Positions 1,566 to 20,800 of a stretch of 25,900 nt of DNA are shown here, one piece after another. This DNA comes from a virus. The position numbers and the translations under genes are program-made. The notes under the pieces are model-generated. The model saw nothing but the letters and a program-made list of their open reading frames with translations, had not been told where the DNA came from and did no database searches. The stretch covers positions 1-25,900 of the IMG/VR virus record IMGVR_UViG_3300013021_000008; one strand, given 5' to 3'. Position 1 is the stretch's first letter. The number at the start of each line of letters is the position of its first letter.

Positions 1566-2486
1566 CTATTTCCCCCTCTCTAAATCTCTAGTTGACCAAT
1601 GCTTAAGACATATTACATTCCCAATCGTCGTTTTGCCTACATTATACTTTTTAGCTAGTTCTTTTAAAGTTATATTTGTTTCTTTGTATTCTTTGATAAT
1701 TTTTAAACTTTTCTTTTTATTTAGTTTTGATTTGATATGATTTGATCCTTTCATTCTATTATCTTTTTTATTATATTTTTTAGATTTTGTTGACCAATGT
1801 TTGCAATTTATAATTTTATTTATAGTGTATAATGATATTTTATATTTTTTAGCAAAATATTTTTGAAATTTATCGCTGTTGTGATATTCTTTATATATTT
1901 TGTTGCCTACTTCTTTTGTTATGTTTTTATTTAAACTTTTACTTATTTTGGATTTAGTCTTTTTAGATACATCATGTCCAGTTTTGCCTTTACTTATATT
2001 TATTTTGTGTTTTTCAGAAAGTTTTATTCCTTTTCTTGCTTCACTCAATTTTTTTCTAAACTCATCTGGATGCTTAAACCCAGTTAATGCTTCACTTATT
2101 TTACTTTTGGTTTCTTTTGAACATTTATGCCCTTGTAATGATTTGCTTATTTTGTTTTTAGTTTCTTCAGGGAAAGAATATCCATTTAGGCCCTCCCCAC
2201 CTTCTGTAAGGTTATACCCTTTGCCATTAAAGGTATTATAAAATTTAATCCAATAAATTTCTTTATCTGACAATTCTTTTTGATCGATGTTTCTTTCTAT
2301 TATTTTAAAATTAAATTCTTTTTTTCCATACTTGTTCCAACTATTTTGTAAGTGTATATTGTGGTGTTTGTTTTTGTTTAATAACTTTTGATGTGTTTTC
2401 CATCTTTGCGGTGGATTGGTTGTCATTCCAATGTATTTCTTTCCATTAACTTTATTTTCAATACAATAAATTACACCTGTTTTCAA
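1566..2486 (-). CDS. GIY-YIG homing endonuclease, larger paralogue
   Basis: I choose the TTG at 2486 because GGAGGT sits 7 bases upstream. An in-frame ATG at 2504 lies upstream of that site and lacks one of its own. The 306-aa product opens with the GIY-YIG domain (VIYCIEN, KKYIGMT, then EIYWIKFYNTFNGKGYN). It continues with about four NUMOD3-like repeats carrying ETKNKIS or KISEA cores (about residues 105-195). Two C-terminal helix-turn-helix units follow, each ending in KHWST, the same signature as the shorter paralogue at 65-694. The two therefore share an origin, and this copy has gained extra DNA-binding repeats. Base composition is more AT-rich than its neighbours. It is the first gene after the promoter and leader at 2511-2673. 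Confidence 0.92.
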   Translation of the reverse strand: MKTGVIYCIENKVNGKKYIGMTTNPPQRWKTHQKLLNKNKHHNIHLQNSWNKYGKKEFNFKIIERNIDQKELSDKEIYWIKFYNTFNGKGYNLTEGGEGLNGYSFPEETKNKISKSLQGHKCSKETKSKISEALTGFKHPDEFRKKLSEARKGIKLSEKHKINISKGKTGHDVSKKTKSKISKSLNKNITKEVGNKIYKEYHNSDKFQKYFAKKYKISLYTINKIINCKHWSTKSKKYNKKDNRMKGSNHIKSKLNKKKSLKIIKEYKETNITLKELAKKYNVGKTTIGNVICLKHWSTRDLERGK

Positions 2487-2510
2487 TTTGATTACCTCCT
2501 GCATAAGGTA

Positions 2511-4653: not shown

Positions 4654-4789
4654 TTATTCCCTCCTCCGATAATTTAACATCTATATCTTCCGCTAAACTA
4701 ATCGCATAATCATGAATAAACATATTACCAGTTTGGTCTGCAATAAAGCTAGAAACTAAAAACATAAACCTTAATTTAAGTATTGTCAT
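4628..4789 (-). CDS. Small hypothetical protein (53 aa)
   Basis: The ATG at 4789 is preceded by GGAGG seven bases upstream, inside the end of the RuvC-like gene (14-base overlap). The frame runs 53 codons and overlaps the start of the next gene by 26 bases. The N-terminal half is hydrophobic (ILKLRFMFLVSSFIA) and the C-terminal half acidic (LAEDIDVKLSEEG). It explains an otherwise empty gap of about 120 bases. Function is unknown. Confidence 0.55.
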   Translation of the reverse strand: MTILKLRFMFLVSSFIADQTGNMFIHDYAISLAEDIDVKLSEEGINEPTRRKI

Positions 4790-5249
4790 TATTATCCCTC
4801 CAATGATGCAAACAAGTATAAGCTATTGCTACCGCATCAGCTTCATCCTTCTGCACATCTTCAATACCATACTTGCTGCATACTAAGTTATTAATATCAT
4901 CTTTGCTTGCTCTGCCATCGCCTGTAAATACTTTTTTAATATGTGCAGGAGCAAATCCTCCTACTTCAACTTTACCATTCATTAGCATAACTGCTCTGTA
5001 TATGCCAAGAAAATTAGATGTACTTCTCAAAGTTTTTCTATTTGGACCGTATGGTTTCTCAAAACCAAAGTGTGTAAATTCTTTCTCACATAACTCTTCA
5101 AAAAAGTTAATCACATTCATATCTCTTTTAGTGCCAGTTCGCTTAAAAGTTTTGTTGCCACTTTCAACTAATTCATCATTTTCAGAAATTATCGCCCAGC
5201 CGCAATGATTACTTCTAGTTATGCCCGGATCAATCGCTAGTATATTAAT
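4776..5249 (-). CDS. RuvC-like Holliday junction resolvase, probable ATT start
   Basis: The reading frame carries the RNase H-fold resolvase motifs: LAIDPG with catalytic Asp (residue 7 from the ATT), the acidic second strand FEKPYGPN, and the C-terminal DEADAVAIAY that supplies the last carboxylates. The first ATG in frame (5120) would delete the catalytic IDPG motif. Upstream of it, back to the stop at the end of the preceding gene, there is no ATG, GTG or TTG. An AAGGAG site stands seven bases before ATT (5249-5247). Initiation at ATT gives 157 aa, the usual RuvC size. It would resolve recombination or replication junctions before packaging. A base error or an ATA start further in is the alternative. 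Confidence 0.78.
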   Translation of the reverse strand: MNILAIDPGITRSNHCGWAIISENDELVESGNKTFKRTGTKRDMNVINFFEELCEKEFTHFGFEKPYGPNRKTLRSTSNFLGIYRAVMLMNGKVEVGGFAPAHIKKVFTGDGRASKDDINNLVCSKYGIEDVQKDEADAVAIAYTCLHHWRDNNDNT

Positions 5250-5260
5250 ACAATCACTCC

Positions 5261-5635
5261 TTAAAGTAATTCAAATTTACTCATAACTTTTATAGTTTCT
5301 CCATCATTTTTTGTTTCATCTGTTATTTTTAAAAAACTCTCTCCATCTAATTTATATATTTCTGTACCATCTGGATGTATTTCTTTTTCTATTCTTTGTG
5401 CTATATGCCCCAAGCTACTTGTATCTCCTATGTCAATAGCTTCTTGCACGTTTAAAGCCAGATTAGGGTCAACACTTCCTATTGCTAATATTATTTTTTG
5501 TTCCTTCTCCTTAATAAATTGTCTTTGCATTTTATAAAAATTTTCATTTATTTCTGATGGATAATCTAACAAATTTGCGGCTGCTTTATTTTTTTCTGCA
5601 TAAAAATTATTGATTTGTTTCTCTATGCTTGTCAT
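5261..5635 (-). CDS. Hypothetical helical protein
   Basis: The ATG at 5635 follows AAGGGG by eight bases; a GTG three codons earlier overlaps that site and is less likely. The product of 124 aa is mostly helical and charged, with a Lys/Glu-rich segment (FIKEKEQKIILAI) and a basic-acidic C-terminus. I do not recognise it. It lies between SSB and the RuvC-like gene. Its stop falls immediately before the resolvase ribosome binding site, so it is part of the replication/recombination operon. Confidence 0.6.
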   Translation of the reverse strand: MTSIEKQINNFYAEKNKAAANLLDYPSEINENFYKMQRQFIKEKEQKIILAIGSVDPNLALNVQEAIDIGDTSSLGHIAQRIEKEIHPDGTEIYKLDGESFLKITDETKNDGETIKVMSKFELL

Positions 5636-5654
5636 TTTATTCACCCCTTATAAT

Positions 5655-5706
5655 TGAGAAGCAAGGCAATGTCTAACTGCTAGCCTCACAGTACCTCAAC
5701 TTCTCA
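5655..5706 (-). other. Long imperfect hairpin after ssb
   Basis: TGAGAAGT pairs with GCTTCTCA, and after a one-base bulge GAGGTA can pair with TATTGCC-side bases, giving about 14 pairs in all. The inner loop contains the palindrome GCTAGC. It lies directly upstream of the ribosome binding site of the gene starting at 5635 and is not followed by a T-run. The 3' flank (CCTTGCT, stem, then AATTATAAGG) resembles that of the hairpin at 732-781. The rest of the 125-base gap shows no gene. Confidence 0.4.
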
Positions 5707-5770
5707 GTCGGCTAAAAATATAATAAAAGTTAATTGTTGGCACTTATTCTAATGTCGGTGTTTAATCTAA

Positions 5771-6405: not shown

Positions 6406-6448
6406 TTACTAATATTATTTTCATTTTTAGTATATTTGAAAATAACTA
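6406..6448 (-). repeat. 43-bp spacer repeat, copy upstream of the zinc-ribbon gene
   Basis: This is the partner of 6175-6217. It starts with the TAG stop of the 55-aa gene and ends before the GGAGG of the zinc-ribbon gene. The inverted repeat arms TACTAA and TTAGTA are perfectly kept, while the six differences lie outside the arms. Confidence 0.7.
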
Positions 6449-6613
6449 TAAATCACGCCCCATATTATTTTCCCAAGCTGAGTCTAAAATTTTCTGCATT
6501 TCTATTACATCTTTTTTAATTTCAATTAACAATTCCCTTTCTTCTGCATTTGGATGTTTTCCTAATAATTCGTCTATTTTACCTAACGTGTCATATTTTT
6601 CTGGTAAACTTAT
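6446..6613 (-). CDS. Small helical protein (55 aa), probable ATA start
   Basis: From 6613 the frame encodes a protein-like, strongly helical peptide (KYDTLGKIDELLGK, then AEERELLIEIKKDVIEM, ending NNMGRDL). Upstream there is no ATG, GTG or TTG before the frame's stop codon. GGGAGG lies seven bases before ATA (6613-6611), which overlaps the previous TAA as ATAA, mirroring the usual ATGA coupling. The only standard start in the first two thirds is an internal TTG (codon 29), which would leave 27 residues. A G-to-A change or sequencing error in an original ATG is the simplest alternative. Confidence 0.5.
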   Translation of the reverse strand: MSLPEKYDTLGKIDELLGKHPNAEERELLIEIKKDVIEMQKILDSAWENNMGRDL

Positions 6614-7129: not shown

Positions 7130-7933
7130 CTAATTATCTGACATCATTTTTAATTCGCATTGGCCTTCAGCAGTCTTTTCTTTGCGCCCTCCATTTATCC
7201 ACCATTCCATTACTTCTTCACCGGTTTTCCATTGTGTTTCTTTACCTCTGCGATTTCTTTCTTCTAACATCCTCTCAAATGTTCTAATATAATTTTGATA
7301 AAACTTAGGGTATTTGTGTGCTTCAAATTTCATTTGTCGCTTATTGGCAAGCGGGCACATTATACAACCTAATCTATCAAATCCTTCATCATATAATTTA
7401 CAGTAGTTTAAGTTTTGTTCTTCAATGAAATCCCAAACATCTTTATCCGACCAGTTGATAATCGGGTTAAGATAAAACTTATCACTTTTTCTAGTATCTT
7501 GCTCAAAAACACACCTATTTGCTCTATTATTACTTTCGGCTCGTCTGACGCCTGTGACAACTATTTTTCTACCATTGCCGCCTTGTTCTTTTAGCACATC
7601 ACAACAATATCTAACCATTCTAGTAGGAGGCATTAATTTTCTAGGTATAAGTTCCCACATGGTTTCTTCTGGATGGTGCATTTCTACATCTGGATGTTCA
7701 TTTCTAATATAATTAACTAACTCTGGAGGATCAACAGTAGTCATATTATAATGAGCATCATATTTAACCTCTGCCATATCGGCAAGCGTTTTTATAACAA
7801 GACTATCCTTCCCACCACTAAAAGCTAAATAATAACCTTCATCTATTTGGTGCATTTGCAAAGCAATTACTGATTGTTTAACTTTATCCTCAAATTCCAT
7901 TCCATCTTCACCAATTTTAGCTCTTTGTAACAT
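7130..7933 (-). CDS. PAPS/APS-reductase-like protein with Fe-S cluster signature
   Basis: This 267-aa protein belongs to the adenine nucleotide alpha-hydrolase fold. The PP-loop SGGKDS (residues 39-44) binds ATP or PAPS. RYCC (Cys 110-111) and CIMC (Cys 190-193) reproduce the CC-X80-CXXC signature that holds a 4Fe-4S cluster in APS reductases. The C-terminus is basic and Trp-rich (METWW-like EVMEWWINGG). Phage members are common, but their substrates are mostly unknown: sulfate assimilation, tRNA or DNA thiolation have been suggested for relatives. An ATG at 7900 is a second possible start. It forms an operon with the 49-aa gene behind the promoter at 8106-8134. Confidence 0.85.
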   Translation of the reverse strand: MLQRAKIGEDGMEFEDKVKQSVIALQMHQIDEGYYLAFSGGKDSLVIKTLADMAEVKYDAHYNMTTVDPPELVNYIRNEHPDVEMHHPEETMWELIPRKLMPPTRMVRYCCDVLKEQGGNGRKIVVTGVRRAESNNRANRCVFEQDTRKSDKFYLNPIINWSDKDVWDFIEEQNLNYCKLYDEGFDRLGCIMCPLANKRQMKFEAHKYPKFYQNYIRTFERMLEERNRRGKETQWKTGEEVMEWWINGGRKEKTAEGQCELKMMSDN

Positions 7934-10213: not shown

Positions 10214-10621
10214 TTAATTTTCAACTGGATTAATAACTTTATCATTATCAATAATAAATGGCTCACCCTGCTTATAATTGCTATATGTGCCGTGTATTAC
10301 AAAACCCGCCATATAATTAGCGCCTTTACTTGCATCACTCTGACATATCTTTTTAGCTTCCTCAAGTGGTATATTATCATTGCACAATCGCTTTGAACCT
10401 CTAGCACCACGTTTGCTGAAAATAAATACATCATAAGTCTGCTGGTTAAGATATTCTGATATTATTTCTTTATCAAAATTTCCTCTAACATTTGCTATAT
10501 CTATTTCATCATCAATGTTAAGAAAATTATTCTTAATGGCCCACTTAACCAAAAACCTATCTGGATCATTATAAGTTTCAGCTTCTTTTAAATAAGTTTC
10601 AACCTTAGTTTTAGCTAGCAA
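10214..10621 (-). CDS. Hypothetical protein in replication operon
   Basis: A TTG at 10621 has AGAGGTGG a few bases upstream and gives 135 aa. An upstream TTG at 10693 (159 aa) overlaps the previous gene and lacks a good site. The sequence is mixed alpha/beta: KTKVETYLKEAETY, then FLVKWAIKNNFLNI, then a C-terminal part with ARGSKRLCNDNIPLEEAK and GFVIHGTYSNYKQGEPF that looks like a small beta domain. I do not recognise the family. Confidence 0.55.
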   Translation of the reverse strand: MLAKTKVETYLKEAETYNDPDRFLVKWAIKNNFLNIDDEIDIANVRGNFDKEIISEYLNQQTYDVFIFSKRGARGSKRLCNDNIPLEEAKKICQSDASKGANYMAGFVIHGTYSNYKQGEPFIIDNDKVINPVEN

Positions 10622-10673
10622 TTTACCACCTCTTTCTAGTAAGCAGTTTATAGTGTTGCTTAGCACTTGCTTG

Positions 10674-10805
10674 TTATTGATTAGCTTTTTCAATTATAGC
10701 TTGCTTCTTTTCTTTATTCTTAATATAACCACCTGTATCTAAACATTTAACTTTATTGCCATTAACCTCAAAATATAATCCATTAAAAAATACTTTACTT
10801 TTCAT
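10674..10805 (-). CDS. Small hypothetical protein (43 aa)
   Basis: The ATG at 10805 follows GAGGGGG, and the frame of 43 codons begins MKSKVFFNGLYFEVNGNKVK, a likely beta hairpin, and ends in a Lys-rich helix. It is the first gene behind the promoter at 10852-10880. Confidence 0.5.
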   Translation of the reverse strand: MKSKVFFNGLYFEVNGNKVKCLDTGGYIKNKEKKQAIIEKANQ

Positions 10806-17822: not shown

Positions 17823-20800
17823 TTAATATGCCCAACTATAATCTGAGCGTGATATTTGCAGTGCTTCGGTTTCCTTTTTAATCAAGTCATACGGTTGTTT
17901 GTCAATTAATACACCTGTGCCTATTTGCTCTGTTGCTCTAAATCCACCTATCCAGCCAAAGTGTGTTATATTTTCATTAGCACTATTAGGACCAAGATAA
18001 GTTAGTGTATCAACTCTATCAGCTGTGTTAACATCCTGTTGTGTGTATTCCTGCCTGCCTAGCTCTGTATCACCGTTAAACCAAGCTATATGTGTTACTC
18101 TATGCTGTGGCTCAAAGTTAGGCGTATATGTGCCGTCTGCCTGCCAGGTGCCATCTGCTTTGAGTTGTCTAAATATATTAGGATTTTCAGCATAAGTCCA
18201 AGTTTTGCTGAAATCGATAGGAATGATTAATATTTCAGTTTCACCTATTCCTTCGCTGACTACTAATTCAGCACGCTTAGTTAATTCCATGAAAAATTCT
18301 TCCCACGTGCGGTGTTTCGGGCCTTTTACTGCTGAAATATCATAGAATATCTGGCCATTTTCATCAAAAGTAGATGTTTTTGTTATTAGTAATTTTTCAC
18401 CATCTGCTATATCCATTGCATCGAGGTTTCTAACTGTGATTAGTTGTCCAGCTTTTAATCCACTTCTTCTAGTTTGAAACTTCAACTCTTTGCTGTCCAC
18501 ACCGTACTTTTGTATTTTCTTATTTCCTATTTCTATTGCAGCTTCTCTACCTTCAACATTCCCAACTGTTATCGCATCTTCAACTATTCCACTTGTGCCA
18601 TCAATGTCAGCTTGTTTGCTTATCAGATTAGGGTTATAAGTTTGTGCTACAATCTTAAACTGCCCAATAAATGTACATCTAACTCTATCATTGCTGGTTA
18701 ATCTACTTTCAGCGTTATCGTGTGTGATAATATCAGACTCTTTCTCCCAATACCATTGGAAACCATCATCAACACCTTTTCTACCAACAGTTTGAGTCTG
18801 CCAAGCACCACCATTAATTGATATTTCAATAGTCGGCTCCTCTGCTATTGGAAAACTAACAGGGAAAGCTTTTTTATCACCATCTCCACGCTCAACATCA
18901 ACCTGCTTCTCTGTGATACCAATTGGGCCTTTGACTAGTTGCTGGTTGCGATATAGTGGATTGCCTGTTTTAGTTGTAGGAAGTCCTCGTATATACTGTG
19001 GCTCTAACTCCCAATCAGCAGGCTCACTATCACGGCTTTTGAAATGCAACACTTTATCAGAGTCTATTTTCCACCAAAAGTTCATCTTATCTGCTACAGA
19101 TGAAATTAATTGTTCTGTTGGCACAAAGTTAGCTCTAGTTTCTAATATTTCTGTGCCATCTTCAATAGTTGCGCCACCACTTATGATACTAATATTAATT
19201 TCATCAAAAGTTGGTGTTATACTTTCATCTGTTGTGCTAAGTGTTGTTTTATACTGCAAAGTTTTGTACATCAAATCAGTCGGCAAATTAGGTATCGGTT
19301 GTCCATTAATTGCTGTCTGCCAAGTTGTACCATTATCTAAGCTAGTTTCAACTGTGATAGAAGTATTAGTTGGTGTAGTTTCCTGCCAGCTTATTGTGCT
19401 ACCTCCATCTTCAACAGCAGGTGATAAGTCAAAAGGTTCACTTATGCGATAACCAGTTGTTTCATAAGCTGATACTACCTCTACTTCTAAACTCTCTAAT
19501 CTAGGCGTAACAGTTGTATCAGTAGTTGACAGTACCTGTCTCACATCAAGAGTAGTCGGATTAGCAGGTAGGTTAGGTATAGCACCACCATTAGTGCAGG
19601 TATCCCAAGTTGTGCCACCATCAACACTAGTTTCGATTGTAATAGTCTGTGAGTTAAGTGTTTCCTGCCAGCTTATACTGCTACTTTCAACATTTCCTGT
19701 TGCTGATAGGTCAAGTTGTGGTGATTGGCGTGTTCCTGTGCCATCTAAATTCCAACTGATGTAATTATCAGTCCAAGTTGCACCATTTATTGTTCCATCA
19801 TTATTTCCTGCACTATCTGTTAATGTTGTGCCACTACCTTCGTTCATTTTGTAGTAAGCGACAAGCCCTGTTTCAGAGCCTGTTAGTTCTTTGTTCATAT
19901 TGTTTTGTATTTCAGTTTGTGTTCTAGCTATGTTCCAAATTCTTACTTCATCTAATTTTATATTTGTATAATTTTTAAGACTTTGACTTGCACCTAAATT
20001 GGTTCTTTTGGCGGGGTCAGAAACTTTATAACTAGGCGTGTTTTCTATATCGACAACACTATTAATATATATTTTTTGATTATTGGTTCCATTTTCTTTA
20101 GAATACGCAATATGATATTTTTGCCCACTATTTATAGCAGTAGAAGTTATAATATCTAGATTACCTCCGCTACCACTTTTAAAGGTTAAAGTGCCTGTGT
20201 TAGATAAAAAACATTGAAAACCATCAATATCTACACCCCAAAGATTGTCTATTATAGCTTTATTAGATGAAGGATAAGAAATTATATAAATGTAAAATTC
20301 TAAAGTAATTTTATCACTAAATCCAGAAATTAAACCTAAATCTACATAATCATCAACCCCATCAAACTCCAAAGCAGGATTATTCTCCAACTCCAACCCA
20401 TCATTAACTGCCACTACATCAGTCAGAGTGCCTGTTGAGAAATCTGCTGTTGTAGTTTCAATGTCAGTTACATCAGAGCCGGTTTTATCTAATCTCAAAC
20501 TATCATTTTCAGCAACTACATTTGATAATGTGCCAGTTGAGAAATCTGCAGTTGTAGTTTCGACAAAGTTTAAATCTTCACTGTAATATACACCTTCTTC
20601 AACTAGTTTTTGGTCAACTATATCTTTGATTATATCTCCTGCTAATTTATTCCTTGCTGCATAGCTTATACGCCTTTTGTCAGCTAGATAATGCATATCA
20701 ATACAAACTATATCGTGCATATATGCGTTAGCTTGCCTGCTTGATAAGGGGTACTTATCGCTAGTTTCAAGGAAACCTGCAAATATTTGCTCATCATTAT

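Follow-up and report, generated by a model that had tools for sequence, protein, structure and literature searches.

A RuvC-like Holliday junction resolvase gene (ruvC) on the minus strand of a 25,900-nucleotide stretch of viral DNA, referred to in the following as the window, is probably translated from an AUU codon at position 5249, using an ordinary Shine–Dalgarno sequence, and its output is likely to be low. Comparison with relatives from other viral contigs gives good support to the ATT start. It shows a common start codon position and an absence of ATG among the family members found, and the weak start suggests that resolvase output is low.

Reading frame and start site of ruvC

The ruvC coding sequence runs from 5249 to 4776 on the minus strand, encoding 157 residues from the ATT start codon (5247–5249) to a TAA stop ending at 4776. 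Upstream, the frame is closed by an in-frame TGA (5271–5273, minus strand), after which it reads ATT ACT TTA AGG AGT GAT TGT ATT(5249) AAT ATA CTA GCG ATT GAT CCG GGC. There is no ATG, GTG or TTG between this TGA and the sequence encoding the catalytic LAIDPG motif. The first canonical start in the frame is an ATG at 5120 (5118–5120, minus strand; codon 44), downstream of LAIDPG, and a Shine–Dalgarno motif, AAGGAG (5262–5257), is separated from the ATT by exactly 7 nt. Frame reading agreed with the initial annotation on these points, namely that no canonical start precedes LAIDPG, that the first ATG is at 5120 and that AAGGAG lies seven bases ahead of the ATT.

In the list of open reading frames with standard starts, ruvC appeared as a 114-residue fragment beginning at 5120, with the catalytic N-terminus lost. 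Gene callers limited to ATG, GTG and TTG truncate the gene in the same way, so that phage resolvases of this type would escape annotation or be annotated wrongly. Two out-of-frame codons near the start, GTG at 5257 and TTG at 5253, open only short dead ends.

The predicted protein

When read from the ATT, the protein matched the Pfam RuvC family PF02075 over residues 3–145 (E = 2.7e-10; 40.8 bits, against a curated cut-off of 22.2) and PHROG 159, RuvC-like Holliday junction resolvase (E = 1e-15). Residues D7, E64, D135 and D138 are invariant among the relatives (alignment A1), and by their positions we take them to be the four acidic catalytic residues of RuvC. The IDPG core is unchanged between clades. 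With the ATT as codon 1, the first catalytic aspartate is residue 7, the same as in solved RuvC chains; a phmmer comparison with these chains gave E = 3e-4, matching mainly the C-terminal half. An AlphaFold model of the product had low confidence (pLDDT 39.6). Judged by these profile matches, the gene product is a RuvC-like Holliday junction resolvase, matched along the whole reading from the ATT.

The protein thus resembles the phage resolvases of PHROG 159, PHROG 1770 and PF02075 in its profile family, its four acidic catalytic residues and the placement of the first aspartate at residue 7. It differs in its start from other viral members with the NILAIDPG motif, which always have an in-frame ATG, GTG or TTG. 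In a control set of 57 viral contigs with DNA encoding this motif, all long frames outside the window ruvC family had such a codon at or before the motif.

Start codons in relatives

The scan of viral contigs yielded 12 relatives of the window ruvC, with 83–100% amino acid identity, 11 of which include the start. In the resulting 12 sequences, counting the window, the equivalent start codon is TTG in seven (L003, L004, L006 and L009–L012), CTG in three (L007, L008 and L013), ATT in two (the window and L002) and ATG in none. The initial annotation had raised the question of whether homologues start with ATG at the same place: the codon position is indeed the same, but it is occupied by TTG or CTG instead of ATG. 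Its central proposal, that the ATT at 5249 is the start, is strengthened by the second contig with ATT and by the homologues starting at exactly that codon. On the aligned sequences, the start is maintained in evolution and is not due to chance, as the equivalent codon has stayed a start in the 11 other contigs, and the occurrence of TTG and CTG but never ATG fits the idea of a weak start better than chance mutation.

The sequence ahead of the start codon differs between the groups. In the TTG members, a TAA immediately precedes the start codon, so the ruvC frame cannot begin earlier. The preceding codon in the ATT members is TGT or TAT, while the CTG members have an in-frame TAA upstream, with six codons in between, none of which is a canonical start.

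We considered whether translation might begin elsewhere, either at ATG 5120, giving a short protein, or at the out-of-frame GTG 5257 followed by a frameshift. The frame from ATG 5120 is the sole one in the standard list, and GTG 5257 overlaps the Shine–Dalgarno sequence. However, codon 44 is ATG only in the window, L002, L003, L004 and L006; it is TTA in the CTG members and ACA in L009–L012, and since these make up seven of the 12 sequences, ATG 5120 is not a conserved start. It also falls after the catalytic aspartate, which a protein starting there would lose. The GTG frame is open for just 6 codons in the window and for 3 in those TTG members that have the GTG, there is no common slippery site, and the upstream sequence of the CTG members differs. 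We therefore regard a start at either place as very improbable.

Another explanation is that a mutation or a sequencing error removed the canonical start of ruvC, which would now be an incipient pseudogene, barely translated or not translated at all. Loss of start codons may occur in this phage, as another window gene has ATA (at 6613) where six relatives have ATG. Against such decay, ATT occurs in two contigs with different upstream DNA: L002 encodes a protein identical to that of the window, with two synonymous differences, both in codons 4–5, whereas an ungapped comparison of the 60 nt upstream gives only 47% identity. Converting GATTAATTG to GATTATATT needs three substitutions or two indels, with the 7-nt spacing kept, which is unlike a single miscall. 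A sequencing error at the ATT itself was rejected, because L002 has the same codon. In all other respects the ruvC protein is intact, and none of its catalytic residues is missing.

The CTG members, which also lack a canonical start, keep an intact protein despite many synonymous changes relative to the ATT members (48 synonymous and 16 non-synonymous codons over codons 2–150). Within codons 2–43, the stretch ahead of the internal ATG, the window and L007 differ by 20 synonymous and 4 non-synonymous codons; the comparison with L009 is less clear, with 11 and 9. Taken together, these observations make decay improbable, and we retain the ATT at 5249 as the probable start.

The sampling behind this comparison is small. 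L009 and L010 are identical over the compared stretch, and L007, L008 and L013 likewise agree over it, which reduces the set to three ruvC clades with some seven start haplotypes; the lack of ATG is hence based on a small number of independent events. A pattern scan for AAGGAG-N7-ATT-NIL found no further ruvC members, its second ATT match (L071) being an unrelated stretch, and scans for the pattern EKPYGPN found no more ruvC relatives. The phage GenBank collection gave just remote RuvC-like matches (E = 6e-3 and worse). In a search of 84,980 prokaryote genomes no ruvC relative was detected, hence neither a host nor a prophage copy.

Gene neighborhood

The window is a fragment of a tailed-phage genome, encoding a tape measure protein, endolysin, DnaB, a DnaD-like loader, an Erf-like annealing protein, an exonuclease and SSB. 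Its DnaB and tape measure protein show low-identity likeness to phages of Bacillota, among others. Two GIY-YIG/NUMOD3 homing-endonuclease-like genes (65–694 and 1566–2504, minus strand) flank an exonuclease/phosphoesterase gene (792–1565), and a phosphoadenosine phosphosulfate reductase-like gene at 7130–7933 (minus strand; PHROG 424, E = 5e-40) is a possible auxiliary gene.

The gene order around ruvC is ssb, a conserved leader and then ruvC, with or without a cassette gene in between. The leader (5645–5720, minus strand) has the potential to form a long hairpin, GAGAAG...CTTCTC, and is followed either by the cassette gene or immediately by ruvC. An Rfam search of the sequence, including the leader, gave no match. 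In L018, the 5′ arm of the leader hairpin is altered. In the window and L002–L004, the leader and ruvC are separated by a gene without an assigned family (5261–5635, minus strand), the TAA of which (5263–5261 in the window) overlaps the ruvC Shine–Dalgarno sequence in the window. This gene is absent or replaced in the other relatives: L007, L008 and L013 have another gene, which overlaps the ruvC start, and L006 and L009–L012 have nothing between leader and ruvC. Judging from this arrangement, translational coupling to the upstream gene is possible where either of these overlaps exists, and would be absent in the leader-only form.

Start codons of other genes in these phages

Start codons were compared over orthologs from the window and from 12 related records, giving 58 start-site groups with at least three records each. 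ATG is fixed in most groups and TTG in some. In six of the 58, a member has no canonical start either at the site or ahead of it; two of these repeat a start already counted, read one or two codons further down, and a third (AGG in record G003) has an ATG two codons downstream. Three genes remain: ruvC, where 5 of the 12 members are affected, the window frame starting at 6613 (ATA), and the homologue of window gene 7116 in G003. In this comparison, ruvC is thus the sole group of the 58 with several members lacking any canonical start. TTG starts are ordinary in these phages, occurring in DnaB and other genes, so the truly unusual ruvC members are those with ATT and CTG only. Our literature search found no paper on phage resolvases with non-canonical starts.

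Initiation and expected output

The AAGGAG motif is extended by TGATT (5252–5262, minus strand), allowing 11 pairs and −12.2 kcal/mol with the 16S tail, for which a Bacillota consensus was assumed. Across all ruvC members, the predicted duplex ranges from −10.8 to −14.3 kcal/mol with this assumed tail, which may not be that of the host. The strength of the ruvC duplex is mid-range among the other window genes. In the ATT and TTG members, pairing continues towards the start codon (AAGGAGUGAUU in the window). Predicted RNA structures around the ruvC start vary from member to member and show no conserved occlusion of it.

We propose that this ordinary, start-proximal Shine–Dalgarno sequence would bring the 30S subunit to the ruvC start, where the initiator tRNA would pair poorly with AUU, making initiation a small fraction of that on AUG. 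The low output would limit a structure-selective nuclease, which in abundance may damage phage DNA during replication; the same phage encodes an Erf-like annealing protein, an exonuclease, SSB and DnaB. IF3 generally discriminates against such non-canonical codons (PMC5472188). By destabilizing complexes on them, it would tie output to host IF3, which would be a by-product of the codon and not an evolved sensor. Some IF3 dependence would follow from this general discrimination, and a dedicated link to initiation-factor levels, as the initial annotation suggested, would be conjectural.

A stronger version of the proposal is that the lineage actively excludes ATG from the resolvase gene, moving among ATT, CTG and TTG, with output set by start-codon discrimination and rising only under reduced fidelity of host initiation (IF3) or, late in infection, with abundant resolvase mRNA. 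We consider this version unlikely. The absence of ATG in ruvC is mildly surprising, and the few independent lineages limit its weight.

The ATT might also be a genuine start that arose by neutral drift and has no regulatory meaning, being allowed by a good Shine–Dalgarno sequence, by upstream coupling or by a host with lax start selection. The common use of TTG starts in these phages would agree with drift, as would two other genes in which single members have ATA or TTT/CTG. Coupling may help where the upstream stop overlaps the Shine–Dalgarno sequence or spacer (the window and L002–L004) or where the upstream gene overlaps the start (L007). However, coupling is not required, as ruvC directly follows the untranslated leader in five of the seven TTG members. 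Furthermore, a single substitution would turn TTG or ATT into ATG (two were counted for CTG), and selection generally keeps AUG starts (PMC5622118), yet ATG is found in no ruvC member. Drift is thus a possible explanation, but a somewhat doubtful one, and we continue to favor a weak AUU start that keeps resolvase output low.

Comparison with known non-canonical starts

Weak starts of the AUU type are already known; what is new here is a phage example in which one gene family never uses ATG and has three alternative codons. Like the start proposed for ruvC, that of the E. coli infC gene, encoding IF3, is an AUU with a Shine–Dalgarno sequence and weak initiation, but infC serves autoregulation through IF3 (PMC5472188 and references there), whereas ruvC encodes a phage nuclease. 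E. coli pcnB, too, parallels the proposed role, being described as a nucleic-acid enzyme held low by an AUU start (Binns and Masters 2002, as cited in PMC13009471). Unlike the phage ruvC, pcnB is a chromosomal gene with an experimental test.

In Staphylococcus aureus, AUU and AUA starts have an extended, start-proximal Shine–Dalgarno sequence (PMC13009471). There, cvfC1 (AUU) and ccpN (AUA) resemble ruvC in combining such a sequence with a non-canonical start; they do so in a low-GC Gram-positive, where starts of this kind, the cvfC1 AUU among them, gave about 10% of AUG output (PMC13009471). The cvfC1 start is conserved among Staphylococci and that of ccpN between S. aureus and B. subtilis (PMC13009471), while the ruvC codon varies between ATT, TTG and CTG. 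AUU initiation also worked in engineered clostridia (PMC11040787). In Streptomyces, the GTC start of sigR is repressed by IF3 and limits a protein that is harmful in excess (PMC5472188). A similar limit is proposed for ruvC, but IF3 dependence was demonstrated for sigR (PMC5472188), while for ruvC it would follow from the codon. If low output is the purpose of the ruvC start, it would be a simple case of start-codon choice limiting a phage nuclease, and the three natural codons provide a ready series for comparing starts.

Other start sites in the window and related records

The window frame at 6446–6613 (minus strand) is a small conserved ORF (ISLPEKYDTLGKIDELLGKH...) with its ATA start at 6613–6611 and a good Shine–Dalgarno sequence, GGGAGG. 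The window has CATATGAGT where relatives have CATATAAGT, and the same change turns the TGA stop of the upstream gene into TAA; ATA was seen in the window only. In the G003 homologue of the window TTG gene 7116 (L085; G003 19695–19701, plus strand), TTT CTG replaces TTG CTA/CTT; AAGGAG lies upstream, and the frame lacks a canonical start. Finally, for the window gene at 10214–10693 (minus strand), the listed start, TTG 10693, probably lies too far upstream; the start that is conserved is TTG 10621 (GGTGGTAAATTG), where three relatives have ATG.
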